A stretch of 64,000 nt of DNA from Burkholderia sp. BCC0322. Its GTDB lineage: Bacteria; Pseudomonadota; Gammaproteobacteria; Burkholderiales; Burkholderiaceae. Shown here one piece after another: positions 7,670 through 42,850 of this stretch (within the stretch, counting starts at the first letter, position 1; every line of letters starts with the position of its first letter). The stretch is taken from the NCBI RefSeq assembly GCF_902833045.1, contig NZ_CADFDU010000019.1:53933-117932 (forward strand), given 5' to 3'. The notes under the pieces were generated by a model. The model did not search any database, was not told where the DNA came from, and saw only the letters and a list, made by a program, of their open reading frames with translations. The translations under genes and the position numbers were made by a program.

Positions 7670-8890
7670 ATGGGTGCCCTGAGCCATATCCGCGTGCTGG
7701 ACCTCACCCGCGTGCTCGCGGGCCCGTGGTGCGCGCAGACGCTTGCCGATTTCGGCGCGGACGTGATCAAGGTCGAGCGCCCGGGCGCCGGCGACGACAC
7801 GCGCCACTGGGGGCCGCCGTACCTGAAGGACGCGGACGGCGCGGATACCGCCGAGGCCGCGTACTACCTCGCGGCGAACCGCAACAAGCGCTCGGTGACG
7901 GTCGACATCGCGACGCCCGAAGGCCAGCAGATCGTGCGCGAGCTCGCCGCGCAGAGCGACGTCGTGCTCGAGAACTACAAGGTCGGCCAGTTGAAGAAAT
8001 ACGGGCTCGATTACGATTCGCTGCGCGCGGTGAAGCCCGATCTCGTCTACTGCTCGGTCACGGGCTTCGGCCAGACGGGCCCGTACGCGCACCGCGCGGG
8101 CTACGACTTCATCATCCAGGGGATCGGCGGCTTCATGAGCATCACCGGCGAGCGCGACGGCGAGCCGGGCGGCGGCCCGCAGAAGGCAGGCGTCGCGATC
8201 GCCGACCTCGCGACCGGCCTCTACTCGACGATCGCGGTGCTCGCCGCGCTCGCACACCGTGACCGGACGGGCGAAGGCCAGTACATCGACATGGCGCTGC
8301 TCGACGTGCAGGTCGCGCTGCTCGCGAACATGAACACCAACTTCCTCGCGAGCGGCAAGCCGCCGGTGCGCTGGGGCAACGCGCATCCGAACATCGTGCC
8401 GTACCAGACGTTCCAGACGCGCGACGGGTGGATCATCGTCGCGGTCGGCAACGACGGCCAGTTCCGCAAGTTCGTCGAGGCCGGCGGCCGGCCCGAGCTG
8501 GCGGACGACGAGCGTTTCGCGACGAACCCGTCGCGCGTGCGCCATCGCGACACGCTGGTGCCGATCCTCGCGGAGATGGTGAAGACGCGCGACAAGGCCG
8601 ACTGGATCGGTGCGCTCGAAGCGGCCGGCGTGCCGTGCGGGCCGATCAACGATCTCGACGAGGTATTCGACAACGAGCAGGTCGTCGCGCGCGGGATGCA
8701 GGTGTCGCTCCCGCACCCGTGCGGCGCGGACGCGAAGCTCGTGCGCAACCCGATCCGGATGAGCGCGACGCCGCCCGACGCACGCACGGCCCCGCCGCTG
8801 CTCGGCGCGCAGACCGACGACGTGCTGCGCGACATGCTCGGCTACGACGACGCGAAGATCGCCGCGCTGCGGGCGAAACAGGCGATCTGA
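7670..8890 (+). CDS. CaiB/BaiF family (class III) CoA-transferase
   Basis: The 406-residue protein starts with MGALSHIRVLDLTRVLAGPW, the typical N-terminal signature of family III CoA-transferases. The catalytic Asp is expected in GVAIADLATGLYS, where it forms the acyl-aspartyl anhydride. These cytosolic enzymes move CoA between carboxylic acids such as formate/oxalate, succinate/glutarate or carnitine derivatives; the donor-acceptor pair cannot be named here. AAAGGAG about 12 bases upstream supports the ATG at 7670 over the ATG at 7649, which itself overlaps that ribosome-binding site. It is divergent from alaS. Confidence 0.9.
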   Translation: MGALSHIRVLDLTRVLAGPWCAQTLADFGADVIKVERPGAGDDTRHWGPPYLKDADGADTAEAAYYLAANRNKRSVTVDIATPEGQQIVRELAAQSDVVLENYKVGQLKKYGLDYDSLRAVKPDLVYCSVTGFGQTGPYAHRAGYDFIIQGIGGFMSITGERDGEPGGGPQKAGVAIADLATGLYSTIAVLAALAHRDRTGEGQYIDMALLDVQVALLANMNTNFLASGKPPVRWGNAHPNIVPYQTFQTRDGWIIVAVGNDGQFRKFVEAGGRPELADDERFATNPSRVRHRDTLVPILAEMVKTRDKADWIGALEAAGVPCGPINDLDEVFDNEQVVARGMQVSLPHPCGADAKLVRNPIRMSATPPDARTAPPLLGAQTDDVLRDMLGYDDAKIAALRAKQAI

Positions 8891-27480: not shown

Positions 27481-30400
27481 CTAGTAATCCGAATAAAGCC
27501 GCACCGGCGTCGGCGTGACGAGCCAGCTGCGTTGCGCGCGCGCGTCGAACGCATAGCGCAGGTACACGAGCGCCGAACTCGGCGCGTAGTCGTGCGACCG
27601 GTCGACCTGCAACTGCGCGCCGACACTCAGGTGCGGGTTCACGCGGTACTCGACGATCCCGTTGATGCCGTACGAGAACGACACGCCGCGCGTCGAGCTG
27701 CCCGCGTACACGAACCCGGCCGCCACCTGCGCGGCCCGCTGGTCCGAGGACATCGGGTAATACAGCGAATCCTTCTCGTAGCTGTTCGAGATCCCGCCCG
27801 TGACGGTGAGGTCCCACGACAGCGCATCGTGCCGCCCCGCCCATTCGAACGGCACGCCGAGCGACAGGTAGCGTTGCGGGCTGTAGTAACCGCCCTGCCC
27901 GTACGTGTAGTAGCGCAGGTTCTGTGCGTAGTGCCACGCATTGCCGACGAGCCCGGTGCTGACCTTCATCGTCGAACGCTCGTACACGGGCATCGTGAAG
28001 CCCGTGCGCAGCGTGACTTCCGCGTTGCGTTCGACGTTGCGGCCGGACAGCACGCCCGCGCCGAGTTCCGCGAACAGGTTCGTGCGGCCGACATCGACCG
28101 ACGCGCGCAGGTTCACGCCGTCGCGCCGAACGCCGCCCCAGACCGCGCCCGTCCATGGGTCGCGCATCCCCGAGTACGACAGCACGCTGCTCGTTTCCGG
28201 CCGCCGCGACGCATTCACCGAGAAACTGGCCGGGCCCGCGTCGAAGCGATAGCGCACGCCGCCGACCAGGTAATGCACGGGGAAACCGAGCGGCGACGTG
28301 CCGAGGTCGAAGCGCCATGCGTCCGTCAGATAGCCGGCGCCGAGCGCGACACCCGTGGCCGTCTGGTGCAGCGAGCCCGGCGGATTCGCGATCGATGCGG
28401 GTGTCAGTGCGTTCTGCGCCTTGAGCGCCGCGTAGCTACCGAACGTGCTGAGCGAATAGGCATTCGGGTTGCTCGTGTCGAGCGTGCCCGGGTCGAGATG
28501 CACGGTGTCGATCTGCGCGAACACATGCCCGTCGTAGCGGATCGGCACCTGCAGGTAGATCGGCACCTGCTGCGCGCGATACGACGAGATGCCTTCGTCG
28601 CCCGACTTGTACGCCGGCGTCCAGCCGGTCTCGATCTCGGGGTTGCGCCGCTGTTCGAGATCCGCGAACGCGGCCTGCGCCGGCGTCAGGCCGTCGCGGC
28701 CCGGGCTCACGCCCGCCGTGCGTTCCTGCGACCGCGACAACCGGTACAGGGACGCCGCGTCGTCGTAGCGACCCTGTGCCTCGGCCACGCGCCCGGCCGC
28801 GACCGTCACGTCCGCGCGCGCCGGATACGCGGCCTGCAGCCGATCGGTCACTTGCGCGGCCTCGTCCGGGCGACGCAGCGCATTCAGGCGGCGCACGGCC
28901 GACAGTTGCGTGTCGACGTCGTCGTCCGGCGTGCGGGCGAGCACCGCTTGCACGCGTGCCAGCGCCGCTGCCCGATTGCCGCCGTCCTCGTCGATGCGTG
29001 CCAGCGCGAGCTGCGTATCGGCATCGTCCGGCGTGCGGGCGACGACCGGTGCCAGCGCCGCACGCGCCGCGTCGTAATGGCCTTGCGCGCGCTCGAGATC
29101 CGCCAGTTCGAGCGCATAGCGCTTGTCCGCGCGGCCGGCCGGGCTCGCGCGATCGAGCAGCTTGCGCGCCTGCGCGTAATCCTGTTGCGCGATCGCGTCG
29201 TCCGTCCGGCGCAGCACGAGCCGCAGCGACTGGTCCTCGAGCCGCGCCGTCTGCGCGGGCGTCAGCGACGGTTCCCGCCGCAGTGCGTCGAGCCACGCGG
29301 CGAGCGCGTCGTCGCGCCCCGCGCTGCCGAGCAGGTCGCCATAGCGCAGCCGCACGTCCGCATCGGCTTCGCGCGGGTGCGCCGCGATCCAGTCGCGCAA
29401 CGGCGCGAGCCCGCGCTCGGGTTCGCCCGCGTCGATCCACTGCGCGCCGATCGCGGCGAGCATGTCGGGGTCGTCCGGCGCACTCGCCTGCGCCTGGGCG
29501 AGGGACGCGGCAAACGCCATGCGGTCGCCGCGTGCGAGCGTGCCGCGTGCATCGGCCAATGCGCCTTCGGCGTCGAGCTTGCGCGCGAGCGCACGCATCC
29601 CGTCGGAGCGGTGCGCATCGTCGACCGGCGCGAGCGCGGCCCGCGCACCCGTCACGTCGTCGAGCGAATTGCGGTACAGCGCGGTCGCGTAGCGCATCTC
29701 GGGCGTCGCGCCTTGCGCAAGCCCGTCGTCCATCACCGTGCGGCCGAGCTGCGGCAACCCCATGTCGCGATAGAGGCGCGCCAGTGCGAAGCGCGTCCAC
29801 GGCGCGTCGGGCGCGGCGCGCACGGCCGCCTCGTAGCGCTGCGCCGCAGGCCCTCGTTCGCCCTTGTCCGCAAGCGCGCGCGCCTGGTTCGCGAGCAGGT
29901 CGGCACGCAGGCCGTCGAGCGCACGCCGATCGTCGCGGCCCGTCACGCGGCCTTGCAGCGCGTCGAGCAGCGGGCCGACCTGGTCCGCGCGGCCGGTGTT
30001 CTCATACAACGTGGCCGTGCCGCGCACGGCGGCGAGGTCAGGCGAACGCGCGGCCAGCAGCGCGCGCAGCAACGGCTCCGCGCGCGCCCAGTCGCGCTGC
30101 GCGAGCAACGCGTCGACAAGCTGCAGCTTCGCGTCCGGGTTGTCCGGCTGCATCGCGAGCGCCGCGCGTGCGGCGCGCTCTTCGTCCTGCGGACGCCCCG
30201 CGGCGGCGGCCGCGCGGCCTTGCGCGAGCAGTCCCCAGAATTGCGCGGTGCGCGCGAGGCCCTGCCATTTGCCGCGCTGGTCGGTCGAAAGCGTCGCGGC
30301 GCGCATGAACAGCGCACGCGCTTCGTCGTGCCGCCCTTCGCGCAGGCGCAGCAGGCCGAGCCCGCCGACCGCGTCGGCGTCGTCCGCACGCGCGCGCGCG

Positions 30401-31362
30401 GCGCGCGTCAACAGCGGATCGGCGCCGGCCAGGTCGCCGCGCGCGAGCGCCTGCAGGCCGCGCTGCTGCGCGATGTAGTCGGGATTGCGTTCGAGCTGGC
30501 GCTGCGCGTCGCGCTGGCGATCCAGTGTGGCCGCCCGGTCGACGAATTCGGTATCGTCCGGTACGAGCGCGAGATACGCATGCAGCGCATCGAGATAAGC
30601 GGGATCGCTGCCGGCCGACTGCAGCACGCGCCGCCACAGCGCCATCGCCTCCGTATGGTCGGCGTCGGCGCGCCTGGCAAGCGCCCAGGCGATCCGGTTC
30701 GCCTCCGGCCGCGTGTCGGCGCGCTGGTTCAAGAGCCGCGCGAGCGCCATCGTCGCGCTCGTGTCCTGCGGATCGGCCGCGACCGCGCGGCGCAGCGCGG
30801 CGATCGCCGGCTCGCGCCCGCCCGGCGCATTCGACACGATCTGGTAATACTCGGCGCCGAGCGCCCCCGACGGCGCGCCGTTCGGAAACAACGCGACGAT
30901 CCGCCGGGCCGCTTCGTCGGCGCGGCCGCTGCGCGCGAGCAGGCGGATCTGCGCCATCTCGCCGCGCCCGCTCGTCGCGACGCGGTATTCGTCCGCTACC
31001 CGCCGCGTGGCGGGCGCAGTGGGCGACTGCGCCTGCAGGCGCGCGAGCGACGCCTGTGCGCCTTTCGCGTCGCCGAGCCGCAGCAGCACGCGCACCTGTT
31101 CGGCCAGCAGTTCGGGATCGCCCGGCGCGATCAGCAGCCCCTTGCGCAGGGCATCGCGCGCGAGGTCGTCGCGATGCTTGACGCCCCACATCCGCGCCGT
31201 GTCGAGCTCACGCCGCGCGTCGGCGGACGCGGAAGTCGCGGGCGTCGCGCGGTTCGCCATCGTCGCGTCCGCCGCGGTGCCCGGCGCCGCCGCGCACACC
31301 GACGACGCGAGCCACGCGAATCCCGCGACGTGCGGCGCGGCGCGCTTCAGCGGGCGGCGCAC
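27481..31362 (-). CDS. bcsC: BcsC, cellulose export TPR/outer-membrane porin
   Basis: The protein (about 1293 residues) has a signal peptide, then a long periplasmic superhelix of tetratricopeptide repeats covering about residues 40-900. Typical pieces are GDPELLAEQVRVLLRLGD and ARLYRDMGLPQLGRTVM. A C-terminal beta-barrel ends in an aromatic residue and guides glucan across the outer membrane. No ATG precedes the signal peptide. The GTG at 31362 (VRRPLKRAAPHVAGFAWLAS) is the best start and overlaps the bcsZ end by 16 bases; starting at the ATG at 31260 would remove the export signal. The length is near that of the Komagataeibacter homologue and longer than E. coli BcsC. Confidence 0.93.
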   Translation of the reverse strand: MRRPLKRAAPHVAGFAWLASSVCAAAPGTAADATMANRATPATSASADARRELDTARMWGVKHRDDLARDALRKGLLIAPGDPELLAEQVRVLLRLGDAKGAQASLARLQAQSPTAPATRRVADEYRVATSGRGEMAQIRLLARSGRADEAARRIVALFPNGAPSGALGAEYYQIVSNAPGGREPAIAALRRAVAADPQDTSATMALARLLNQRADTRPEANRIAWALARRADADHTEAMALWRRVLQSAGSDPAYLDALHAYLALVPDDTEFVDRAATLDRQRDAQRQLERNPDYIAQQRGLQALARGDLAGADPLLTRAARARADDADAVGGLGLLRLREGRHDEARALFMRAATLSTDQRGKWQGLARTAQFWGLLAQGRAAAAAGRPQDEERAARAALAMQPDNPDAKLQLVDALLAQRDWARAEPLLRALLAARSPDLAAVRGTATLYENTGRADQVGPLLDALQGRVTGRDDRRALDGLRADLLANQARALADKGERGPAAQRYEAAVRAAPDAPWTRFALARLYRDMGLPQLGRTVMDDGLAQGATPEMRYATALYRNSLDDVTGARAALAPVDDAHRSDGMRALARKLDAEGALADARGTLARGDRMAFAASLAQAQASAPDDPDMLAAIGAQWIDAGEPERGLAPLRDWIAAHPREADADVRLRYGDLLGSAGRDDALAAWLDALRREPSLTPAQTARLEDQSLRLVLRRTDDAIAQQDYAQARKLLDRASPAGRADKRYALELADLERAQGHYDAARAALAPVVARTPDDADTQLALARIDEDGGNRAAALARVQAVLARTPDDDVDTQLSAVRRLNALRRPDEAAQVTDRLQAAYPARADVTVAAGRVAEAQGRYDDAASLYRLSRSQERTAGVSPGRDGLTPAQAAFADLEQRRNPEIETGWTPAYKSGDEGISSYRAQQVPIYLQVPIRYDGHVFAQIDTVHLDPGTLDTSNPNAYSLSTFGSYAALKAQNALTPASIANPPGSLHQTATGVALGAGYLTDAWRFDLGTSPLGFPVHYLVGGVRYRFDAGPASFSVNASRRPETSSVLSYSGMRDPWTGAVWGGVRRDGVNLRASVDVGRTNLFAELGAGVLSGRNVERNAEVTLRTGFTMPVYERSTMKVSTGLVGNAWHYAQNLRYYTYGQGGYYSPQRYLSLGVPFEWAGRHDALSWDLTVTGGISNSYEKDSLYYPMSSDQRAAQVAAGFVYAGSSTRGVSFSYGINGIVEYRVNPHLSVGAQLQVDRSHDYAPSSALVYLRYAFDARAQRSWLVTPTPVRLYSDY

Positions 31363-32582
31363 GAGCGGCCTCCCCAGCGGGTGTCGAGCGTGCCGTCCGC
31401 GCCGAACCGGTAGCGCCCTTCGCGCCAGCCTAGCCCGAACAGCGTCAGCACGCTCGTGTAGTAACCGGGCGCCGACTGGCGCGCGAGCGTGTCGACACGC
31501 GCCACCTGTGCATCCGCGAGTGCGCGCTGGCCGCGTGCGTCGAGGAACGGCACGGCCGCCGCCGAGAACCCGCCGTTGCCGTCGTTCGGCCCGGCGACGC
31601 CCGTCGTCGTATCGACCCGCTCGGGCGGCGCGCCATGTGCGGCGATGGTGTCGGCGAACGGCGCAAAACGCGCGAGCAGCGGCGCGGCGAGCGGATCGGC
31701 ACGGTCGAGCATGCCGGCCCACAGATACACGCGGATCGCGTTGTACGCGCTCTCCGCCTTCGTCTCGCGATCGGGCCCGAAACCCGCGCCCGCGCGATAC
31801 AGCGCCCAGTCGGGCGAAAAGCCTTTCGGCGCGGTGTCGAGCAGCACGCGTCCGGTGCTGGCGGCGAGCGCGGCCCAGCGCTTGTCGTCGGGCAGGCGCG
31901 CGCCGAGCGCGCGGATCACCTGCGGCGGCGAATAGCTCGGATTCACGCGCCACTGGCCGTCGGCGAGCTTGAACCCCGTCGGCCCCGGCAACAGCGTGAG
32001 GCCGAGGCCCGGCACGGCCGCCGTCTCGTCGTCGAGCACGCGCTTCGCGAGCAGCGCGCCGCGCGCCGTGTAGCTGCGCTCGTGCCACAGCCGCCCGGCC
32101 TCGACGAGCGCATACGCGATCCAAAGGTCGGCGTCCGACGCCGCGTTCGCATCGAGCACGCGCCACGCGCCGTCGGGCGCACGGCCCCACAGCCACGCCG
32201 GCAGGTGCGCGCTCAGGTCGCCCTGCGCGAGATTGTTCTCGGTCCATGCGAGGATCGTGTCGAACATGCGCCGGTCGTTCGCGACCAGCGCGAAGAAAAG
32301 TCCATACGCCTGCCCCTCCGACACCGTGCGTGAATCGGCCGAACCGACGTCGATCACACGGCCGTCGGCCGAGACGAAATCGCGCTTGAACGCGTCCCAG
32401 CGCGGCCACGCCGCGCCGCATCCCGCGTCGGCCGCGTCGATCGCGCCGGCCCCCGCGGCCTGCGCGCGCGTGGCCATGCCGGCCGCCGCGCACGCCACCG
32501 CAACCGCAACCGCCAGCGCGAGTGCCGCGCCGCCGCGCCGCGCCGGCCGCATTGCCCGTCGCTTCGCCATTGCCCGCGCCAT
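31347..32582 (-). CDS. bcsZ: BcsZ, periplasmic GH8 endo-beta-1,4-glucanase with altered catalytic base
   Basis: The 411-residue exported protein matches BcsZ of E. coli along its length. TVSEGQAYGLFFALVANDR carries the general acid Glu89; LPAWLWG, LLPGPTGF, RVNPSYSPPQ and APKGFSPDW are typical. The residue equal to the catalytic base (Asp243 in E. coli, SYDAIRVY) is Asn281 here (AYNAIRVYLWAG; codon AAC at 31740-31742). GH8 enzymes normally use this Asp, so hydrolysis may be weak or may rely on another base. BcsZ trims glucan in the periplasm and is needed for normal export. The N-terminus is long and Ala-rich; a start at one of the other Met codons in the first 11 residues is possible. Confidence 0.93.
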   Translation of the reverse strand: MARAMAKRRAMRPARRGGAALALAVAVAVACAAAGMATRAQAAGAGAIDAADAGCGAAWPRWDAFKRDFVSADGRVIDVGSADSRTVSEGQAYGLFFALVANDRRMFDTILAWTENNLAQGDLSAHLPAWLWGRAPDGAWRVLDANAASDADLWIAYALVEAGRLWHERSYTARGALLAKRVLDDETAAVPGLGLTLLPGPTGFKLADGQWRVNPSYSPPQVIRALGARLPDDKRWAALAASTGRVLLDTAPKGFSPDWALYRAGAGFGPDRETKAESAYNAIRVYLWAGMLDRADPLAAPLLARFAPFADTIAAHGAPPERVDTTTGVAGPNDGNGGFSAAAVPFLDARGQRALADAQVARVDTLARQSAPGYYTSVLTLFGLGWREGRYRFGADGTLDTRWGGRSCAAR

Positions 32583-32585
32583 CCG

Positions 32586-34889
32586 TTACATCCCCCGTCG
32601 ACGCGCGGCGATTCTCTGCAGCACGCTGAACACGCCGAGCGCGAGCAGCAGCCCCGCCACGACGCCGACCGCGCCAAGCACGACCGGATGCCGCGCCGCT
32701 TGCGTCCACACGCGCGCATACCACGGCACGAAGCCGACCACGTAAGGCTCGCCGACGCGCAGGCTGTCCACCTGCCCCGGCCGCACCAGCGCAAGGTCGC
32801 CCTGCAGCTGCGACACGAGCCCGGCGTTCTCGAACACGTCGAGCAGATCGCCGAGGCGCGGCTGGTCGGTCGCCGTCAGCGCGACGACGCTGCGCCCCCG
32901 GCTGCCCGGCAGCTCGAACCCGGCGAGCGCCGCGAGCGAGCCCGTCTGCTCGATATGCGCGCCGCCTTCGGTCAGGCCGACGCCGTTGCGCCAGCGCTCC
33001 TTCACCGAGAACGCGACGCGCGTGGCGCCCGCGCCGCCCTGCTCGCCGATCACGAGCGGCAATGCCGAGCGCCAGTGCGCGAGCAGCGGCGACGCGGGCG
33101 AACCGTCGATCACGAGGAGATCCTTGCTGCCCGACAGCGCGGCGACGTCGCCGGGCCGCGCGACCTGCACGCGCAGCGCCGGGAAACCGGTCCATTCGCC
33201 CATGTGGCCGAGCATCGTCAGGTAGGCCTCGAGCTCCTGCGGCGACGGCCGGTCAGGCATCACGACGGCCGTCTGCGACAGGTCGGCGAAACGCGTGAAC
33301 GGGAAGCCGCTGTTCGCGAAGAACGCGAGGTTCGGCAACTGCGCGTAATGGACGAAGTGCGAGAAGTCGATCGTCGAATCGGGATCGATCGCCGCACGCT
33401 GCGGCTCGGTCGCCGTGCTCGAGCAGAGGCCCGTCTTCTGCGAATCGAGCGTGAAGCGGAACTGCAGCTGGTTGCCGCTGCCGACCCGGAACGCCGGGAT
33501 GTCGACGTCGCTCGTCACGCGCCCTTCGGGCACCGAGAGAAGCGGCAACTGCATGCGACCGTGCGCGTCCTCGGCATGAGCCGGCCCGAGCCGGTACGAC
33601 TTCACGAGCTGGTCGTTGATCTCGACGGCGAGTGTCGAGTTGTCCTGCACCGTCGGCGCCGTGTAGCGGTAGCGCAGCGTGATCGGCACGCCCGCGCCAT
33701 TCCACGAATGCAGGTCGGACGGCACCCGCAGGTTCAGGCGGATGGCGTCGGGCGTCGTGCCGCGCACTTCCAGTTCGCGCGCGTCGGATACGAGTTCGCG
33801 GAACGCGATCGGCCGGTTCACGGGCAGCCAGCGCGGCGCGTCATACGGCTTGCGCGGCGCGCCGAGATCGACGTGCGCGACCGTCGCCGACGGCCCCGAC
33901 AGCGCCACGCGGCCCAGCACGAGCGTCGCGACCGCGTCGTCGACCTCGGCCGCCGTGCGGCCCGTGACGACGAGCAGCTTGCGCCCCGGCGCGGCAGGGT
34001 TGTCGGCGACCGCGAGCAACGGGCCGTTGATCGACGGCAGCGCGAGGCCGGCCGGCAGCGTCGCGGGCGTGCCGATCACCACCGCCTGGTCGTCGGCCGG
34101 CAACCCGGACGACACCGGGAAGCGCGCGTGCCGGTAGTCGGCCAGCGCGCCGAACCACGACGCCAGCACGCCCGCGCTGCGCAGCGTCGCCGAATCGGGT
34201 GACGCCGGCAGCACGAACGGCAGCCGCACGCGGCCGTTGTCGCGCCGGTCGAAGAACGGCGCGGGCAGCAGCGCGAGATCGTTCGGCAGGCGGACCGGCG
34301 ATTCGTCGAGGATCAGCTCGCTCTTCGGGCTCACGTCGGCCCACAGCGCCGAGTTGGCCGGATCCTCGCAATGGTCGAGCGTGTAGTGCGCGATCAGGCG
34401 CAGGCCGATCTGGTTGAAATCCGAGAAGTAGCGCGGATCGATCGGGATCTCTTGCGTGACCGTGCGGCCCGCCTGTGCGGCGTCGAACGGGACGGTCGCG
34501 ACGACCTCGCCGTTCACCGATACCTTCAGGTGCGACATCGGGAACACCAGCGACGGCGAATACGCGTAGGTCAGGCGCAGCCGCGCGCCGGTGACCACGC
34601 GATCGAGCCGCACGCCCGCATTGATCGTGCGTGCATCATCGGCCCCGCGCAGGCGCAGCGGATCGAACGCGCCGAGCACCGCGAACGGCAGGCGCACCGT
34701 CGTCGCCGGCAGGCCGGCGGCGGCCGCGCTGGCCGCCGCGGGCGCCGCCGCGAGCACCGGCGCCGGCGCAGCGCCGGATGCGGCGCCGGCGGCCGGCACG
34801 GCCGGCATCGGCGCGGCCGACAACGCGGCGGCATGCAAAGCGCCGACCATGGCGGCCGAGAGGACGAGCAGCGACACGGCCGGCTTCAT
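32586..34889 (-). CDS. bcsB: BcsB, periplasmic cellulose synthase regulatory subunit
   Basis: The 767-residue protein has a signal peptide, an Ala/Pro-rich stretch, paired carbohydrate-binding and flavodoxin-like domains, and a C-terminal membrane anchor (about residues 735-757, VVLGAVGVVAGLLLALGVF). BcsB binds BcsA at the inner membrane and guides the glucan through the periplasm; its tail helix is essential for catalysis. Typical BcsB elements are YAYSPSLVFPMSHLKVSVNG and HYTLDHCEDPANSALWADV. It is the first gene of the operon and ends only 3 bases before bcsZ. Having bcsB first and bcsA seventh differs from the usual bcsAB order. Confidence 0.95.
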   Translation of the reverse strand: MKPAVSLLVLSAAMVGALHAAALSAAPMPAVPAAGAASGAAPAPVLAAAPAAASAAAAGLPATTVRLPFAVLGAFDPLRLRGADDARTINAGVRLDRVVTGARLRLTYAYSPSLVFPMSHLKVSVNGEVVATVPFDAAQAGRTVTQEIPIDPRYFSDFNQIGLRLIAHYTLDHCEDPANSALWADVSPKSELILDESPVRLPNDLALLPAPFFDRRDNGRVRLPFVLPASPDSATLRSAGVLASWFGALADYRHARFPVSSGLPADDQAVVIGTPATLPAGLALPSINGPLLAVADNPAAPGRKLLVVTGRTAAEVDDAVATLVLGRVALSGPSATVAHVDLGAPRKPYDAPRWLPVNRPIAFRELVSDARELEVRGTTPDAIRLNLRVPSDLHSWNGAGVPITLRYRYTAPTVQDNSTLAVEINDQLVKSYRLGPAHAEDAHGRMQLPLLSVPEGRVTSDVDIPAFRVGSGNQLQFRFTLDSQKTGLCSSTATEPQRAAIDPDSTIDFSHFVHYAQLPNLAFFANSGFPFTRFADLSQTAVVMPDRPSPQELEAYLTMLGHMGEWTGFPALRVQVARPGDVAALSGSKDLLVIDGSPASPLLAHWRSALPLVIGEQGGAGATRVAFSVKERWRNGVGLTEGGAHIEQTGSLAALAGFELPGSRGRSVVALTATDQPRLGDLLDVFENAGLVSQLQGDLALVRPGQVDSLRVGEPYVVGFVPWYARVWTQAARHPVVLGAVGVVAGLLLALGVFSVLQRIAARRRGM

Positions 34890-35368
34890 GCGCCGCTCCG
34901 TGTCGTCAGGATCATCCGGTCATCCGTCGCATCGGCACCGATGCGCGCAAAGCAGCCATGCCCGTGAGTAAACATCCCCACTGCTTCCCCTCATATCTCT
35001 AACTGGCCTGATTCATTTATCGAAACAACGCGGCGATTTCTTTAATCGCGCGTCGCCGGGCTACGCGCCTGGCACCGGCACATGCCCATTCGTCACACTA
35101 TCTCAAAAATAGGACAAAACTTACCCCGATTCGCAACGTTCGAGCGAAAAAAACCTCGATCCGGTCGGAAATGCTGCGCGAGAGGGATGAATGGTAAGAA
35201 TTGCGCCGTTGTCGCCCGGCAAGCCGAACGGCATACTGCCGGCGCGGTGCGGCTGGCCGGCGGCGGTTCGTTGCGAACCGCCCCGCCGGAACTCGCTGCC
35301 GCGAAGCGGCGCGTATGCTACCGCAATCCCGCGCCGCACGGACGTGCTTTCTTTCACGGAAAACTGAC
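34890..35368. promoter_or_regulatory. Divergent control region between bcsB and the GGDEF gene
   Basis: This 479-base region is markedly more AT-rich than its surroundings (for example 34991-35040 and 35095-35165) and must hold promoters for both the cellulose operon and the diguanylate cyclase. Short A tracts and TGGCAC at 35070-35075 are visible, but I could not assign a specific factor. No convincing gene lies within it. Confidence 0.6.
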
Positions 35369-36391
35369 TTGAATCAAATCGTCGGCACTGCCACTCCGTC
35401 CCCCGATACGCTGCTGCGCATCATTGCCGCGCAGACCGAGATCGCGAAGCTCGGCCTCGATCTCGGCAGCGTGATGGCCTATGTGGCCGAGCAGGTGCCG
35501 CAACTCACCGGCGCGAGCGCCGCCGCGGTCGAATTCGCCGAGGGCGACGACATGGTGTACCGCGCCGCGTCGGGCACCGCGGCCGGGATGCTCGGCCTGC
35601 GGCTGCGCCGCTCGGGCAGCCTGTCGGGCCTGTGCGTGCAGCAAGGCGAGTTGCTGCACTGCACCGACTCGGAAACCGACCCGCGCGTCGATCGCGACGC
35701 ATGCCGGCGCGTCGGCCTGCGCTCGATGCTGGTGATGCCGCTCACCCATGCCGACACGACCGTCGGCGTACTGAAGGTGATGTCGCCGGAAGTCGACGGC
35801 TTTTCGCAAGCCGACGCCGGCACGCTGCGGCTGACGGCCGATCTGATCGCCGCCGCCATGTTCCACGCGGCGCGCAACGAGGCGAACGAACTGTACCTGC
35901 GCGCGACGCACGACGCGCTCACGGGTCTGCCGAACCGCGCGCTGTTCTACGACCGCCTGCGACAGTCGATGCACACGACGCTGCGCGCGAACGGCCGGCT
36001 CGGCATCCTCAACATCGACATGGACGGGCTGAAGCCGATCAACGACGGGTTCGGCCACCGTGCGGGCGATGCGGCGTTGCGCGAGATCGCCACGCGGATG
36101 CGGGGCGCGGTGCGGCGCTCGGACACGGTTGCGCGCATCGGCGGCGACGAATTCGCGGTGATCCTGCCGAACATCGGCAACCGCGACGATGCGCATGCGC
36201 AAAGCGCGCGGCTCGCGCGTCAGGTCGGCGAACCGTTCGAATTCGAGGGACGCCCGATGCAACTCGGCGTCAGCGTCGGCATCGCGCTGCTGCCCGACGA
36301 CGGCACCGACATGAACGCGCTGATCGAGCATGCGGACAAGGCGATGTATGAAGTGAAGCGCACGCGCTCGAAACGGGCGGCGCACGCATGA
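35369..36391 (+). CDS. GAF-GGDEF diguanylate cyclase
   Basis: The 340-residue cytosolic protein has a GAF sensor domain (about residues 20-165) and a GGDEF domain (about 180-335). The active-site sequence RIGGDEFAVIL is intact near residue 258, so it should convert two GTP to c-di-GMP. RRSD five residues before it is a complete RxxD inhibitory site, implying product feedback. The most likely start is the TTG at 35369 (NQIVGTATPSPDTLLRIIA), since the open frame further upstream encodes Arg-rich sequence unlike the family. It is divergent from bcsB and is the obvious local source of c-di-GMP for BcsA and BcsE. Confidence 0.9.
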   Translation: MNQIVGTATPSPDTLLRIIAAQTEIAKLGLDLGSVMAYVAEQVPQLTGASAAAVEFAEGDDMVYRAASGTAAGMLGLRLRRSGSLSGLCVQQGELLHCTDSETDPRVDRDACRRVGLRSMLVMPLTHADTTVGVLKVMSPEVDGFSQADAGTLRLTADLIAAAMFHAARNEANELYLRATHDALTGLPNRALFYDRLRQSMHTTLRANGRLGILNIDMDGLKPINDGFGHRAGDAALREIATRMRGAVRRSDTVARIGGDEFAVILPNIGNRDDAHAQSARLARQVGEPFEFEGRPMQLGVSVGIALLPDDGTDMNALIEHADKAMYEVKRTRSKRAAHA

Positions 36392-36472: not shown

Positions 36473-36925
36473 CTAGCCGATCGGCGGAACGGCGATCGCG
36501 AGCCCGACCGCGAGCCACTGGACGACCGCGACGAGCACACCGGCCCGGCACAGCCCGACCGCACCGCGCACGCGCGCGTCGAGCGCACGTCCGGCCTTCG
36601 ATGCGTCGATCCAGCCGAGATCCGTCAGCGCGCGGTCAAGCGCCGCGAGCCCGTCGTCGACCGGGGCCTCGCCTGCCGCCGCGCACGCGAGCGCGGCGAA
36701 CAACCTGCGATCGATCGCGATCCGCACCGCGTACCACAGCGCCGCGATCCCCGACCCGGTGCTGACGATGGCCAGCAGCACGCGGGCGATCGTCGCCGGC
36801 GCCCACCCCGACGCGATCCACCAGCCCGCGCCGGACGCGGCCAGCGCGGCCGCGATCGCCCACGCGCCCGCATCGAGTGCGCCACGCGCGGCGGCAATCC
36901 TGAACGGCGCGGACGGATCGTGCAT
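36473..36925 (-). CDS. Small inner-membrane protein linked to the ynb-like genes
   Basis: The 150-residue protein has four hydrophobic segments (about residues 20-40, 45-65, 70-85 and 120-145) and no recognised motif. Its ATG shares one base with the stop of the PAP2-phosphatase gene (TGATG), so translation is coupled and the two products probably work together. It is the last gene of the minus-strand phospholipid-type operon. Function unknown; an accessory subunit of the membrane enzymes is possible. Confidence 0.7.
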   Translation of the reverse strand: MHDPSAPFRIAAARGALDAGAWAIAAALAASGAGWWIASGWAPATIARVLLAIVSTGSGIAALWYAVRIAIDRRLFAALACAAAGEAPVDDGLAALDRALTDLGWIDASKAGRALDARVRGAVGLCRAGVLVAVVQWLAVGLAIAVPPIG

Positions 36926-38331
36926 CACGCGCCTCCCGCACCCCGACGGCGATCGATCCAGTGCTGCAGCACGGCCACGCCTTCGTCCGACCACACCGCA
37001 TGGGGCCGTACCGCGCGCACCGCGGCCAGCGCGTCGCGCGCATCGCCGAGCCCGCGTCGCGCCGCCAGCCATGCGGCCGCGCACAGCACGCTGCGCCCAT
37101 AGCCGAGCGCGCAGCAGACCAGCACGTCGCGCCCTTCCCCGTGCAGGCGTTCGAGCGCCGCGACGGCCCGCGCGAGCTGCCCGGCCGTCGGCGCGACGAG
37201 GTCGAGCTGAGGCACGGTCGCATACGCGAGCGCCGCATCGACCGACGTCCAGCGCGGCATCTCGGCGGTCAGGTCGACCAGCGCCGTGAAGCCGTGGCGG
37301 CGCACGTCGCGTGTCGTCGGCGTGCGGCCGATCGATACGCGCTCGTCGATCCGCACCGGCGCCGGCTGCCGGAGCGTCCACAGCCGCGAATTGACGAACG
37401 CGCCTGCAATCGTCGGCGCGAGCAGCCAGCGAATGACGACCGGAAAACGCCCGTGCGCGTCCTTCTGGAATGCGCCGGGTGCGCCGCGCCGGTAGATCCA
37501 CGCGACACACGCGAGCGCCAGCGCGACCCACCCTGCCGCCAGCGCCCAGCCGGGCGCGCGCGGCACGCACCAGAGCGCCACGAGCGCGCCCCCCGCCGCG
37601 CCGAGCGCATAGCGGCGCGCGAGCGCACGGCTGGCCGCACCCGGCGACGCATCGGCACCCGGCAGCCGGCCCGCGGCATCGCGCAGCGGAAACAGGAACA
37701 GCGCGAGACAGCCGACGGCCGCGCCGGTCGGGACGTCGATCGCGTGATGCTGGTAAGTGGTCAGCACCGACACGCCGATCGCCGCGAACCACAGGTGCAG
37801 CACGGCACGCGCGAGCGTGCCGCGCAGGTGCTTCGCATAGACGGCCCACAGCACGACGAGCAGCCCGATGTGCAGCGACGGCGCCTGGTTGAACGGCTTG
37901 TCGAAGCCCATCAGCAGCGTGAACAGCGCACCGGCCACGCCGCCCGCGTCGGGCCGCTCGAACCCGAAGCGCAGCGGCCACGCGATGAAGCATGCGACCG
38001 AGATCAACTGCACGGTCAACAGCCGCTTCACGTGGTCGAGCAGGTCGGCTCGGCGCGTCCAGAAGAAGAACGACAGCGCATACAGCAGGTCGATCGACCA
38101 GTACGGCACGATCGTCCACGGCACGAACGGGATCGCGTGCTCCCAGCCGAACGCGAAGGTCGGCACCGCCGCGCGGCGCGCGGCGAGCCAGTTCGCGAAG
38201 CCGTAGGTCGAGAAGAACACGGCCCCCATCACCGCGAGCCAGCCGAAGCGCAGCGCGAACGACGCGTCGCGCGCGCCGGCCGCGGACGCCGCTTCGGCGA
38301 GGCCGCTCGCGCCGCCGTCGAGCGCGCTCAT
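36925..38331 (-). CDS. PAP2 phosphatase fused to a dual-specificity (CX5R) phosphatase, YnbD-like
   Basis: The 468-residue protein joins two phosphatases. Residues 30-285 form a multi-helix PAP2 domain of the Aur1/inositolphosphotransferase type, with PSLH (151-154) and HHAID (195-199) as catalytic motifs. Residues 320-460 are a cytosolic dual-specificity phosphatase domain with CALGYGRS. This gives the CX5R loop, Cys407 to Arg413, with Cys rather than His before the nucleophile. E. coli YnbD has the same architecture. A membrane-lipid phosphate substrate, for example a phosphatidylglycerophosphate-like intermediate, is a reasonable inference. Both ends overlap neighbours (ATGA before, TGATG after). 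Confidence 0.85.
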   Translation of the reverse strand: MSALDGGASGLAEAASAAGARDASFALRFGWLAVMGAVFFSTYGFANWLAARRAAVPTFAFGWEHAIPFVPWTIVPYWSIDLLYALSFFFWTRRADLLDHVKRLLTVQLISVACFIAWPLRFGFERPDAGGVAGALFTLLMGFDKPFNQAPSLHIGLLVVLWAVYAKHLRGTLARAVLHLWFAAIGVSVLTTYQHHAIDVPTGAAVGCLALFLFPLRDAAGRLPGADASPGAASRALARRYALGAAGGALVALWCVPRAPGWALAAGWVALALACVAWIYRRGAPGAFQKDAHGRFPVVIRWLLAPTIAGAFVNSRLWTLRQPAPVRIDERVSIGRTPTTRDVRRHGFTALVDLTAEMPRWTSVDAALAYATVPQLDLVAPTAGQLARAVAALERLHGEGRDVLVCCALGYGRSVLCAAAWLAARRGLGDARDALAAVRAVRPHAVWSDEGVAVLQHWIDRRRGAGGA

Positions 38332-40097
38332 GACGCGTCGACCCGCTGCGCGAGGCTGACCGTGAAGATGCCCATTGCGTCGATCCGCTGGTCGAGCTTG
38401 CGGAAGCCCGCGCGCGCGACGAGTTCGTCCATCTCGGCCTGCGAGCGGCGGCGCATCACCCAGGTCGCTTCGCCGCGGTGATTGTTCAGCGCGCGCGCGA
38501 TGAATTCGAGCTGCGGATGCCACGGCTGCCCCGTATAGACGAGATAGCCGCCCGGCGGCACGGCCTGCGCGAGCCCGCGCAGCGACCGCTCGATCAGCGA
38601 ATTCTCGCCGAACAGCTCGTAGAGGCCCGACACGATCGCGAGCGTCGGACGCGGCTCGAGCGCCGCGAGCGACGCCTCGTCGAACGCGTCGCCGCGCTCG
38701 AAGCGAGCGATCGGCTCGAGGCCGCGCTGCGCGATCAGCACGCGCCCGGCCTCGACGTTCGGCGGGCTGTAGTCGCGCAGCGTGATGTCGTCGGGCGCCG
38801 CGCCGTCGCGTTCGGCGGCCGACGCGATCGCGTCGAGCACGTAGCGCCCGTGCCCGGCCGCGATGTCGACGATCCGCACCGGCGCGCCGTGGCCGCGCAA
38901 GCGGCCGATCGCCGCGCCGATCAGTTCCTGCAGATGCACCTTGCGCTGGCGGATGCCGACCCAGCCCGGCGAGTCGAGATACGTGCGATCGATCAGCGCG
39001 CCGACGCCGAACCGGCCCTGCGCGCGGTTGCGGTACACATAGTCGAGCGTCGAGCCCGAATCGAAGCCGAGCCGCAGCCCGAGCGCGATGCCGTCCGACA
39101 GCGCGCCACCGGCCTTCAGGCCGGCCCGTGCAAGCGCCCAGTACGCCCGCGCGAACACATTCGCCGGCGGCCGGCCGAGCGCCGCGTATTCATCGTGGAA
39201 CGCGCCGCGCCGGTCGGCGTCGGCGAGCGACACGCGCGGGCTCGGCGCATCGAATTCGCGCAACACGAACGCACGCAGCGGCGCGAGCGCCTGTGCACGG
39301 TCGCGTTCGCCGAGCGTGTCGTGATAGAAACCCGGCAGCACGATGCGCTCCTTGCGCGCGGCGCCGAGGCGTTCGAAGAAGCGGTCCTGCGGGCCGCGAT
39401 GCACGACCCAGTCGGCGCCCGAGATCAGCAGCTGCGTCGGCACGGTGATCGCGGCCGCGTCGGCGACGATCCGCCGCGCGGTGTCGTGCAGGTCGAGCAG
39501 CATGTTGACCGCGATCGGCCGCGTAATCAGCGGATCGGACGCATAGCTCGCGATCCGCTCGGGATCGTGCGTGAGGAATTTCGGCTTCACGTAGCTGTTC
39601 ACGTAGAACAGGCCGCGCAGCTTGTGCATCAGCCGCAGGCCCGGCCGCGCGAACGGCACGTAGAGCTTGATGTGGAACGCAGGCGACGCGACGACGAGCG
39701 CGCGGATCGGCGGCGCATAATCGTGCGCCCAGGTCGCCGCGAGCACCGCGCCGACGCTCTGGCCCACCACGGCCATGTCCTCGATCGCGATGCCGTGCGT
39801 GTCGCGGATATGTTCGACGAAGGTCTGCAGGTCGCGCACCGATGCGGCCGCGCTCGGGCTGTAGCCGCGCGCGCCCGGCGAGCGGCCGTGGCCGCGCGCA
39901 TCCCACGCGAAGAACGCGAATTCGGGCAGGTCGAGTTCGTCGACCAGGTGCGCGACGCGCGCCGAGTGTTCGTGGCCGCGATGCAGCAGCACGATTGCGC
40001 CGCGGCAGCGCGCGCCGGTAGCGGGCCAGTGACGATAGAACAGCGTTTCGCCGTCGTGCGTGATGAAGTCGGCCTCGCGGGCCATGCGTGCGCTCAT
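38328..40097 (-). CDS. Alpha/beta hydrolase-SAM methyltransferase fusion, YnbC-like
   Basis: The 589-residue protein has an N-terminal lysophospholipase-like hydrolase (about residues 1-290). Its nucleophile is Ser114 (VGQSVGAV), the loop DARGHGRSPG is typical, and the His lies near GFYHDTLGE. The C-terminal half has a class I methyltransferase fold with VRIVDIAAGHGRYVLDAI around residue 405 as the SAM-binding loop. The same fusion occurs in YnbC of E. coli. It could deacylate a lipid and methylate a head group, but no substrate is known. It lies 81 bases after the phosphatidyltransferase gene and overlaps the next gene by ATGA. Confidence 0.87.
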   Translation of the reverse strand: MSARMAREADFITHDGETLFYRHWPATGARCRGAIVLLHRGHEHSARVAHLVDELDLPEFAFFAWDARGHGRSPGARGYSPSAAASVRDLQTFVEHIRDTHGIAIEDMAVVGQSVGAVLAATWAHDYAPPIRALVVASPAFHIKLYVPFARPGLRLMHKLRGLFYVNSYVKPKFLTHDPERIASYASDPLITRPIAVNMLLDLHDTARRIVADAAAITVPTQLLISGADWVVHRGPQDRFFERLGAARKERIVLPGFYHDTLGERDRAQALAPLRAFVLREFDAPSPRVSLADADRRGAFHDEYAALGRPPANVFARAYWALARAGLKAGGALSDGIALGLRLGFDSGSTLDYVYRNRAQGRFGVGALIDRTYLDSPGWVGIRQRKVHLQELIGAAIGRLRGHGAPVRIVDIAAGHGRYVLDAIASAAERDGAAPDDITLRDYSPPNVEAGRVLIAQRGLEPIARFERGDAFDEASLAALEPRPTLAIVSGLYELFGENSLIERSLRGLAQAVPPGGYLVYTGQPWHPQLEFIARALNNHRGEATWVMRRRSQAEMDELVARAGFRKLDQRIDAMGIFTVSLAQRVDAS

Positions 40098-40178
40098 GCG
40101 TTTCTCTCTCGTTTCGTTATTCGAATCTTGGTGCGCCGCCCTCCGGCGCCCGGTACCGCAACCGCTCCAGCTACCCTG

Positions 40179-40784
40179 TCAACCGCCCTTTTCCGCGATG
40201 CCGGCCTGCACGCGCCGCACCACGGTCACGATCGACAGCACGATCAGCAGCCGCCACAGCCATGCGGCAACGCCGCCGACCGGAAACCCGAGCCCGATCC
40301 ACAGTGCGAACGCGCCGAGGGCAAGCGCGCGGTCGCTCTTGCCGAACGGGCCGTCGTAGCGGCGGCTCACGCCGACCAGTGGGCCGATCAGCCCCGCGCA
40401 TTCGACGATCACCGCCGTCAGCGCGAACAGCCAGACGTCTGCCGGAGCGAACACGGGAATCGCGAGAAACGGCAGCACCAGTGCGATATCGGACACGACA
40501 TCGCCGAGTTCGTTCAGGTATGCGCCGAGCGTGCTCTTCTGGTTGTGTTCGCGCGCGAGCATCCCGTCGATCGCGTTGAGCGCCATCCGCGCGAACAGCC
40601 ACAGCGGGATCAGCAGGAACAGTGCGCGGGCAAACACGCCGAGGCCGGCGAGCGCGCCGACGACGATCGAGCCGCCGGCCGCGAACAGCGTGACCTGGTT
40701 GGCCGTGACGCCGCGCTCGGCGAGCGCGTTCGCGAACGGGCGCAGACGGTTCTGGAATTTGGGTTTGAGTGCGTAGAGGCTCAT
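40179..40784 (-). CDS. CDP-alcohol phosphatidyltransferase, YnbA-like
   Basis: The 201-residue membrane protein has about six helices and the CDP-alcohol phosphatidyltransferase motif. Against D-x2-D-G-x2-A-R-x8-G-x3-D-x3-D it reads Asn70, Asp73-Gly74, Ala77-Arg78, Gly87, Asn91 and Asp95. Two of the four motif Asp are therefore Asn. E. coli YnbA, as I remember it, shows the same two Asn, so this is probably a subfamily trait rather than decay. It should transfer a phosphatidyl group from CDP-diacylglycerol to an unknown alcohol. It is the first gene of a minus-strand operon with the YnbC- and YnbD-like genes. Confidence 0.88.
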   Translation of the reverse strand: MSLYALKPKFQNRLRPFANALAERGVTANQVTLFAAGGSIVVGALAGLGVFARALFLLIPLWLFARMALNAIDGMLAREHNQKSTLGAYLNELGDVVSDIALVLPFLAIPVFAPADVWLFALTAVIVECAGLIGPLVGVSRRYDGPFGKSDRALALGAFALWIGLGFPVGGVAAWLWRLLIVLSIVTVVRRVQAGIAEKGG

Positions 40785-41250
40785 CGTTTTATTTGTGCGG
40801 CACAGTCGGATACGTTTCCCGCCACCCTGCCCCGGGCGGCGAAACGGACTTGAAGGGCCTTGAAGGGCCTTCCATGGACGGGCCTAATCGTCGCCGAGCG
40901 GCCCCGATGCGTCAAGCATGCGCCCGGCCCGCGCGCGCGGCGCGAATCTGGCGTTTTCGACGGAAACTCGCGATAATCCGCTGGCCCGATCGCAGCGAGA
41001 TCCATTCGAACTGCAAACGGGCACTCGTGCAACAGCCGATTATCACGCCGCCGGCCGGCTCATTCGCCGCGACGCATCAGCGTGAGACGGCGAATCGTCC
41101 GATTATCGCGGACCTGCGACAGGCAGCCACGAATTTGAAAAATTTTAAACAAGGGCCGTCCGGCGCGCATCCTGCCGCGCCGGCATTCCGGGGCTCCGCC
41201 CGCCGCTCACGCGCAGCGGGCCATGCAGGCAGGCAGGAGGCGCAGCGCCG
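40785..41250. promoter_or_regulatory. Divergent control region of the two ynb-like operons
   Basis: This 466-base gap separates the minus-strand phosphatidyltransferase operon from the plus-strand acyltransferase-synthase pair and must hold both promoters. The 10-base unit TTGAAGGGCC is repeated in tandem at 40850-40869. An AT-rich patch with TTTGAAAAATTTTAAACAA lies at about 41134-41152. No convincing gene is seen here. Confidence 0.55.
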
Positions 41251-41883
41251 ATGAACATCCTCGACATCTGGCAGCGCGATTTCCTGCTGTCCATCGTGCG
41301 GCTCGTCGCCGGCGCGTATCCCGTCTGGCATCAGGCGCCGCCATCGCCGACGCAGAAGATCTACTTCTCGAACCATACGAGCCACATCGACACGCTCGCG
41401 ATCCTCGCCGCGCTGCCGCGCAACGTGCGCGCGGTCGTGCGGCCGGTCGCCGCGCGCGACTACTGGGACAGCAGCGACATGAAGCGCCACATCGCGCAAA
41501 AGCTGCTGAACGTCGTGCTGATCGACCGCCACCGCGAATCCGGCGGCGATCCGCTCGACCCGGTGCGCGACGCGCTCAAGCAGGGCCATTCGATCATCAT
41601 CTTCCCGGAAGGCACGCGCGGCGCGGAGATCCTGCCGCAGCCGTTCAAGAGCGGGCTGTTCCACCTCGCGACCGAATTTCCGGACGTCGCACTCGCGCCC
41701 GTCTATCTCGAGAACCTGCAACGGATCATGCCGAAGGGCGCGATCTGGCCGGTGCCGCTGATCTGCAAGGTGCACTTCGGCGCGAACGAAGCGCTCGGCG
41801 CCCAGGAAGACAAGCCGACGTTCCTCGCCCGCATGCGCGACGCAGTCGTCTCGCTCGCGCCGCCGCAGCGGCCGGCCGGCTGA
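41251..41883 (+). CDS. PlsC-like 1-acylglycerol-3-phosphate acyltransferase
   Basis: The 210-residue protein has the acyltransferase motifs of the PlsC family: NHTSHID (HX4D, motif I) and FPEGTRG (motif III). In PlsC these act in transfer of an acyl chain to a lysophospholipid to make phosphatidic acid at the inner membrane. AGGAGG about 14 bases upstream supports the ATG at 41251. It is 37 bases from the CDP-diglyceride synthase gene, so the two would make phosphatidate and then CDP-diacylglycerol in sequence. It is unlikely to be the housekeeping plsC, given the paralogous setting. Confidence 0.88.
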   Translation: MNILDIWQRDFLLSIVRLVAGAYPVWHQAPPSPTQKIYFSNHTSHIDTLAILAALPRNVRAVVRPVAARDYWDSSDMKRHIAQKLLNVVLIDRHRESGGDPLDPVRDALKQGHSIIIFPEGTRGAEILPQPFKSGLFHLATEFPDVALAPVYLENLQRIMPKGAIWPVPLICKVHFGANEALGAQEDKPTFLARMRDAVVSLAPPQRPAG

Positions 41884-41920
41884 ACGCGGCGCCCTCTTCT
41901 CCCTTTCCGGATATCAAGAA

Positions 41921-42850
41921 ATGCGAACAATTTTCTGGGAACTGGTCGCGGGCGTCACGGGCGTGCTCGTCGTCGCGACCGTGATCGGCGCGATCCTCGG
42001 CGCACGCAGCGGCGGCACGAACGCGACCATCGTCAATCTGAACCAGCGCATCCGCGCGTGGTGGGCGATGATCGCCATCATGGCCATCGCGATCGGCCTC
42101 GGCAACAACATCACGTATCTGGTGTTCGCGGTGCTGTCTTACCTGACGCTGCGTGAATTCATCACGCTCACGCCAACCACCGCGAGCGACCATACGACGC
42201 TGTTCATCGCGTTCTTCATCGCGATCCCCGTGCAGTACCTGCTGCTCGGGATCAACTGGTACGGGATGTATTCGATCTTCGTGCCCGTGCACCTGTTCTT
42301 CGCGATGTCGCTCGTGTCGGCCCTCACGCAGGACACGCGCGAATTCCTGAGCCGCAACGCGAAGATCAACTGGGCGCTGATGGTGTGCGTCTACGGGTTG
42401 AGCCATGCGCCGGCCGTGCTGATCCTCGACATTCCGCACTACACGGGGCAGAACGCGCTACTGCTGTTCTTCTTCCTGTTCGTCGTGCAGATCAGCGACG
42501 TGCTGCAGTACGTGGTCGGCAAGCTGTTCGGCAAGCGCAAGATCGCGCCGCAGCTGTCGCCGTCGAAGACGATCGAAGGGTTCATCGGAGGCGGCTTGCT
42601 GGCCACGCTGTGCGGCGCATCGCTGTATCGCGTGACGCCGTTCAGCTTCGGGTCGGCGTTCGGCATCTCGCTCGCGATCGTGATCGCGGGCTTCGTCGGC
42701 GGCCTCGTGCTGTCGGCCGTCAAGCGCTCGCTCGGCACCAAGGACTGGGGCTCGATGATCGCGGGCCACGGCGGGATGCTCGATCGCGTCGACTCGATCT
42801 GCTTCGCCGCGCCGGTGTTCTTCCACCTCGTGCGGTATCTGTACGTGTGA
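41921..42850 (+). CDS. CDP-diglyceride synthase (phosphatidate cytidylyltransferase), YnbB-like
   Basis: The 309-residue multi-helix membrane protein has the complete CdsA signature near its C-terminus: SAVKRSLGTKDWGSM and GHGGMLDRVD, with the SxxKR, KD and HGGxxDRxD elements. SDVLQYVVGKLFGKRK is another conserved CDP-DAG synthase block. It forms CDP-diacylglycerol from CTP and phosphatidate. E. coli YnbB is the nearest known type in context. With the preceding acyltransferase it supplies activated lipid, presumably to the divergently encoded phosphatidyltransferase. Confidence 0.92.
   Translation: MRTIFWELVAGVTGVLVVATVIGAILGARSGGTNATIVNLNQRIRAWWAMIAIMAIAIGLGNNITYLVFAVLSYLTLREFITLTPTTASDHTTLFIAFFIAIPVQYLLLGINWYGMYSIFVPVHLFFAMSLVSALTQDTREFLSRNAKINWALMVCVYGLSHAPAVLILDIPHYTGQNALLLFFFLFVVQISDVLQYVVGKLFGKRKIAPQLSPSKTIEGFIGGGLLATLCGASLYRVTPFSFGSAFGISLAIVIAGFVGGLVLSAVKRSLGTKDWGSMIAGHGGMLDRVDSICFAAPVFFHLVRYLYV

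Follow-up and report, generated by a model that had tools for sequence, protein, structure and literature searches.

A six-gene ynbABCD-type cluster of Burkholderia with an altered metal site in its CDP-alcohol phosphatidyltransferase-like protein and a putative phospholipid product

The locus and its gene families

The stretch of DNA analyzed here (the window) comprises 64,000 nucleotides of Burkholderia sp. BCC0322 (contig NZ_CADFDU010000019.1, positions 53,933 to 117,932 of the forward strand). Positions 36473 to 42850 of the window hold a cluster of six intact open reading frames in two divergent blocks separated by 466 bp, as a preliminary description made from the sequence alone had them. 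That description compared the cluster with the ynbABCD operon of Escherichia coli and proposed a parallel, probably condition-specific pathway to a new membrane lipid. The features are as follows.

36473 to 36925, minus strand: small membrane protein gene (about 150 amino acids [aa]; no Pfam family)
36925 to 38331, minus strand: ynbD (468 aa; PAP2-type membrane domain followed by a C-terminal dual-specificity, CX5R, phosphatase domain)
38328 to 40097, minus strand: ynbC (589 aa; serine hydrolase, S114-D229-H259, fused to a class I methyltransferase, Methyltransf_20)
40179 to 40784, minus strand: ynbA (201 aa; CDP-alcohol-phosphatidyltransferase-like, with the metal-site motif N-x2-DG-x2-AR-x8-G-x3-N-x3-D)
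40785 to 41250, no strand: divergent intergenic region, containing a 22-bp block at 40964 to 40985
41251 to 41883, plus strand: PlsC-like acyltransferase gene (210 aa; H42-x4-D47 and FPEG motifs)
41921 to 42850, plus strand: ynbB (309 aa; CDP-diacylglycerol synthase paralogue)

The start and stop codons of the ynbC-ynbD and ynbD-small gene pairs overlap, which suggests coupled translation. Most of the families first proposed for these proteins were borne out by Pfam: PF01553 for the PlsC-like protein (57.6 bits, cut-off 23), PF01148 for YnbB (211 bits, cut-off 24), Hydrolase_4 plus Methyltransf_20 for the YnbC fusion (237 and 449 bits), DSPc for the phosphatase half of YnbD (42 bits, cut-off 33.5) and, by a marginal pass, PF01066 for YnbA (23.0 bits, cut-off 22). 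The assignment that fell short was the PAP2 half of YnbD, which scored 16.8 bits with PAP2_3 in the whole protein and 20.4 bits as a half alone, under the threshold of 27; a weak PAP2_3 match was found in 23 of 24 PAP2 halves of YnbD relatives.

A co-inherited gene set across proteobacteria

We searched 398 genomes drawn from the phylum with a YnbA profile and read up to 17 kb around every match, counting the cluster genes by profile searches. A clear YnbA match was found in 37 genomes, and within the genus ynbA was present in 49 of 61. All six genes occurred together in 23 of the 37 loci, and eight held only YnbA, the PlsC-like protein and YnbB. The remainder comprised two loci with YnbA, YnbC, YnbD and the small protein and one each with YnbA and YnbC; with YnbA, YnbB, the PlsC-like protein and YnbC; with YnbA and YnbB; and with YnbA alone. 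The PlsC-like gene and the small membrane protein gene, which the preliminary description took for additions to an E. coli-like operon, are thus usual members of the set.

The genes are linked, as the co-occurrence check suggested in that description had required. Methyltransf_20, the family of YnbC, was found in 27 of the 398 genomes, all of them among the 37 with YnbA and each time 1.4 to 2.0 kb from it (hypergeometric P of about 6e-34, with the relatedness of the genomes ignored). YnbD invariably stood beside YnbC, in 25/25 loci of the phylum draw and in 57/57 of a second set of named loci. Because YnbC always accompanies YnbA and YnbD always accompanies YnbC, the modules are largely nested, with exceptions: the core, then YnbC, then YnbD.

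The named set contains 72 loci of at least 16 kb, out of 80 that were kept from the matches listed. It was retrieved with patterns, one of which required Asn at the first metal site of YnbA, so that the phylum draw tests the constancy of that site with less bias. Among the matches listed, 48 of the 72 loci had all six genes and 11 had YnbA, the PlsC-like protein and YnbB alone; the closest were from Burkholderia, presumably of the cepacia complex. Outside Burkholderia and its near kin the usual gene order was A-C-D-small-PlsC-B on a single strand, whereas within them the PlsC-ynbB pair lies in the opposite orientation and the set is split. Several Rhizobium and Ochrobactrum loci showed another kind of split.

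Some single loci departed from these layouts. One genome (G055) carried on another contig a second, 62% identical ynbA (L051), adjoined by ynbC, the PlsC-like gene and ynbB; there ynbD was not in its usual place, and a weak 40-bit hit lay ca. 5 kb upstream. An Azonexus metagenome-assembled genome (L069) had the Burkholderia-type divergent layout with a 72% identical YnbA, possibly by transfer or through a binning error. A gene for a WG-repeat protein was inserted between ynbC and ynbD in L031 (10708 to 12861), a gene for YdbH, an intermembrane phospholipid transport protein, lay near a core of YnbA, YnbB and PlsC-like genes in one genome (L017, 9564 to 12203), and a second PF01553 acyltransferase gene stood directly 5' of ynbA in a core-only cluster beside glycyl-tRNA synthetase genes (L037, 8887 to 9705).

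The metal site of YnbA

The hallmark of the CDP-alcohol phosphatidyltransferase superfamily is reported as D-x2-D-G-x2-A-R-x(7,8)-G-x3-D-x3-D, with four Asp (PMC9385802, PMC4634129). In accounts of the solved relatives, eight residues are given as absolutely conserved; among them the first three Asp (D1 to D3) bind metal, and the fourth (D4) probably serves as the base (PMC4634129, PMC6506517, PMC9385802). YnbA has the superfamily fold and its Pfam family, and lacks the four-Asp hallmark. D1 and D3 were Asn, and Glu followed D3, in 114/114 sequences (57/57 after redundancy reduction at 80%), a feature that the preliminary description overlooked. This set was restricted to sequences of at least 190 aa, which left out, among the shorter ones, L050 and L049 (with an internal stop). 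Of the 37 YnbA in the phylum draw, 36 had the N/N site (41 of 42 when five other sequences were joined to them), and the exception was the degraded motif of L050. This relative (8345 to 8815 of its locus) has lost part of the motif and is the sole copy of the 37 with no partner gene within ca. 8 kb. By comparison, all 11 other PF01066 proteins of four genomes had Asp in both places, as established with a pattern for nine and by visual inspection for two whose spacing differs.

The rest of the site was extremely constant: D73, G74 and D95 were found in 114/114 sequences and R78 in 113/114, as were, among the putative acceptor-site residues, K149 and R152 (114/114) and R191 (113/114). The closest structures were phosphatidylinositol-phosphate synthases. 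From these and the archaetidylinositol-phosphate synthases YnbA differs by the two Asn in place of hallmark Asp, by the absence of an Arg94 equivalent and by scores far under the NCBIfam equivalog cut-offs (74 against 180 and 42 against 170).

Substitutions of this kind are damaging in relatives. In a phosphatidylserine synthase, replacing any of these residues by Ser or Asn is described as greatly lowering or abolishing activity, partly restored in some mutants by extra Mg (PMC8633023), and D4 to Asn nearly abolished activity in a phosphatidylinositol-phosphate synthase (PMC4634129). YnbA therefore either functions with an altered metal site or has another activity. One such alternative is a scaffold that binds or hydrolyzes CDP-diacylglycerol and transfers nothing, in a cluster that remodels or degrades existing lipids by acyl removal, dephosphorylation and methylation. 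The uniform loss of two of the four metal-site Asp, and the reported crippling of a related enzyme by such changes (PMC8633023), fit this reading. We nevertheless consider it unlikely: the remaining motif and the putative acceptor-site residues are unlike a decaying site, the PlsC-like protein and YnbB would produce the very donor that a transferase requires, and the only partnerless copy (L050) is also the only one with a degraded motif. That D2, D4 and the putative acceptor-site residues vary so little would speak for a working enzyme.

The partner proteins

The catalytic residues of the other proteins were kept at 97% or more. In the PlsC-like protein (97 sequences) they were H42, D47, P119-E-G121 and R123. 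H-x4-D and FPEG-x-R are the blocks of lysophosphatidic acid acyltransferases, and the protein carries both together with PF01553; its score with TIGR00530 (1-acylglycerol-3-phosphate O-acyltransferase) was 50 bits, under the cut-off of 103. In YnbB (101 sequences) they were D193, K216, S265, K268-R269, K274-D275, G282-H-G-G285, D288-R289 and D291. The signature of CDP-diacylglycerol synthases is S-x2-KR...KD...GHGG...DR-x-D, and YnbB has its residues along with PF01148. YnbB thus shares family and C-terminal residues with the synthase CdsA, but it reached only 87 bits on the E. coli-type equivalog model (cut-off 385), and the N-terminal half of E. coli YnbB is reported to be unlike that of CdsA (PMC7018664). 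Housekeeping enzymes were expected elsewhere in the genome, and in each of four genomes searched we found one other PF01148 gene and two to three other PF01066 genes; one genome (G001) also had three other PF01553 genes.

YnbC kept S114, D229, H259 and D411-x-A-x-G-H-G (87 sequences). YnbD (84 sequences) kept S152, H154, H195, H196 and D199 in its PAP2 half and D377, C407 and R413 in its phosphatase half, which has both DSPc and the Cys-x5-Arg site of dual-specificity phosphatases. Its predicted structure (pLDDT 90.4) has eight helices of at least 15 residues between positions 25 and 282, preceding the phosphatase domain, and from the helix count the PAP2 site and the phosphatase domain would lie on opposite faces of the membrane. 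As Cys phosphatases need a reducing compartment, the phosphatase domain is probably cytosolic. Fold searches with YnbD were dominated by the phosphatase half and barely probed the PAP2 half, for which the matches to solved structures were weak (best, human phospholipid phosphatase 1, E value of 0.002); this half may be either a phosphatase or a phosphotransferase.

The best structure for YnbD by Z score was PTPMT1 with a bound phosphoinositide (19.4; 1.8 Å over 144 residues), with other dual-specificity phosphatases within 1 Z unit and PTPMT1 not at the top by Foldseek E value. YnbD shares the dual-specificity fold and CX5R site of PTPMT1-type lipid-phosphate phosphatases and differs from them in its fusion to a PAP2-type membrane domain. 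PTPMT1 is a phosphatidylglycerophosphate phosphatase, and glycerol-3-phosphate is a common metabolite. An auxiliary phosphatidylglycerol route could be imagined on this basis, in which YnbA would be a second phosphatidylglycerophosphate synthase and the PTPMT1-like domain of YnbD the matching phosphatase, supplying a special phosphatidylglycerol pool under envelope stress. A weak match to TIGR00560 (pgsA) in 32 of 56 YnbA, the ready availability of glycerol-3-phosphate and the rank of PTPMT1 are in its favor; we rate it as quite improbable.

A hydrophobic-rich frame of 121 to 198 aa lay just downstream of ynbD in 82 of 89 loci, E. coli being among those without it; the set leaves out the frame picked in L068, which is the PlsC-like gene. 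In the 82 aligned sequences, numbered on a longer frame of 173 aa, Asp95 (98%), Asp120 (100%), Arg136 (91%), Arg141 (98%) and Gly144 (90%) were conserved. None of five stretches searched, one of which (L113) was placed by eye, had a Pfam match.

Relation to E. coli ynbABCD

Orthologues of YnbA, YnbB, YnbC and YnbD lie close together here, with identities to those of E. coli K-12 (b1408 to b1411) of 45%, 37%, 57% and 38%, so that the likeness to ynbABCD was well seen. The E. coli locus has the same YnbC and YnbD fusions and the same N/N motif in YnbA, but its order is A-B-C-D as opposed to the two divergent blocks, and neither a PlsC-like nor a small gene was recognized there. E. coli has, in other words, a reduced set that lacks two of the six genes.

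The function of ynbABCD had been considered not established. Judged by titles and abstract openings, among the matches listed in the open-access literature, no paper dealt with the operon product, the six-gene set or the Asn site. YnbB, on the other hand, has already been studied, as a CDP-diacylglycerol synthase in vitro (PMC7018664) that is able to serve the synthesis of the glycolipid MPIase (PMC7018664, PMC10881803). Its overproduction in E. coli reportedly raised MPIase without complementing cdsA, and its deletion had mild effects (PMC6362211); the failure to complement agrees with the expectation that this is no full housekeeping enzyme. A condition-specific role, also anticipated, is in line with the activation of ynbA by BglJ-RcsB after acid stress that one paper reports, citing another (PMC12871917).

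These studies also suggest that the cluster might be a backup for MPIase, in which YnbB and its partners would supply GlcNAc-PP-diacylglycerol while the other genes trim or recycle. Overproduced YnbB restored MPIase under CdsA depletion (PMC6362211, PMC7018664), and cdsA and ynbB are both described as upregulated in the cold (PMC10881803). However, MPIase was reportedly not changed significantly by ynbB deletion (PMC6362211), CdsA already does this job, and the scheme described in those accounts assigns no step to the transferase-like protein, the lipase-methyltransferase or the double phosphatase. We regard this explanation as very unlikely.

The divergent region and neighboring genes

The 22-bp block at 40964 to 40985 was identical in 10/10 aligned Burkholderia, and the decamer SGATAATCSG occurred three times in the window (0.33 expected), twice within the divergent region; block and decamer are possible candidate operators. 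A promoter and terminator scan of 40785 to 41250 found nothing.

Just outside the cluster, positions 27481 to 36391 hold cellulose synthesis (bcs) genes and a gene for a GAF-GGDEF diguanylate cyclase. Among 26 distinct loci examined, bcsB was close to the cluster in nine, every one from Burkholderia (seven presumably of the cepacia complex), and in none from other genera. Since this adjacency is confined to Burkholderia it reads as local synteny, and we rejected a functional tie. An E. coli ynbA transposon insertion is listed as enriched among mutants with low cyclic di-GMP, with no mark of Sanger confirmation in that source (PMC13031359).

No linked gene pointed to the identity of the head group: ten that were examined, from within core-only or unusual clusters or from their flanks, belonged to unrelated families (including NnrS, FKBP, MeaB, fatty-acid oxidation and a citrate transporter) or to none. 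In a comparison of 42 loci, families other than those of the cluster itself recurred in five loci at most; the two that did so, in two families of genomes, were the glycyl-tRNA synthetase subunits and hence housekeeping.

A putative pathway to a phospholipid

The cluster is a real and widespread pathway of lipid type, whose genes are co-inherited and whose key enzyme is unusual, and it probably makes or tailors a phospholipid. From the gene set and its co-inheritance in largely nested modules, the conserved catalytic residues, the N/N site and fold neighbors of YnbA and the absence of a detectable inositol-phosphate synthase, all directly observed, we infer the substrates, the order of steps, the membrane sides and the kind of lipid set out below. 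We hold the chances evenly balanced that the cluster is a dedicated, non-housekeeping CDP-diacylglycerol route working in this detailed way.

In this scheme, the PlsC-like enzyme would make a particular phosphatidic acid that YnbB would activate to CDP-diacylglycerol. On the cytosolic side, YnbA would transfer the phosphatidyl moiety, the likeliest acceptor being a phosphorylated small polyol or sugar, and so give phosphatidyl-X-phosphate as the first product. Home-made inositol phosphate is unsupported as the acceptor, inositol-phosphate synthase (PF01658) having been found in 0/10 genomes, although inositol might be taken up. YnbC might then remove or exchange an acyl group and methylate, the cytosolic Cys phosphatase domain of YnbD would take off the head-group phosphate, and its PAP2 site, on the opposite face, would come into play once the lipid had been flipped. 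For the small protein, a role as an assembly or substrate-handling subunit is probable.

Several observations weigh against this scheme. With two hallmark Asp missing and mutations of such residues crippling a related enzyme, it is possible that YnbA does not act as a transferase. The Arg associated with inositol phosphate (R94 in Mycobacterium tuberculosis) was found in 0/114 YnbA, the position being V, I, M, A or L in 114/114, and the phosphate site around R152 and R191 is present in all solved relatives and is therefore weak evidence for a phosphorylated acceptor. YnbC was absent from 10 of the 37 YnbA genomes, and 12 of the 37 had no YnbD near YnbA, so that dephosphorylation by YnbD is dispensable. 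In four of the 37 loci (L019, L023, L025 and L050) neither the PlsC-like protein nor YnbB was found within ca. 8 kb, and deletion of ynbB in E. coli is reported to have little effect (PMC6362211).

A bolder version is possible, though on balance doubtful: that YnbA founds a class of CDP-alcohol phosphatidyltransferases that are active with an Asn/Asp/Asn/Asp metal site and that the six-gene cluster makes an undescribed class of phospholipid, as would the reduced set of E. coli during envelope stress of the Rcs type. Were this so, common proteobacteria, including laboratory strains of E. coli, would hold genes for an unassigned membrane lipid, and a metal-dependent superfamily would have a branch that works without two Asp thought indispensable. 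The definition of the set by six genes supplies the PlsC-like and small proteins, which are missing at the E. coli locus and lie beyond the reach of single-gene work on YnbB.

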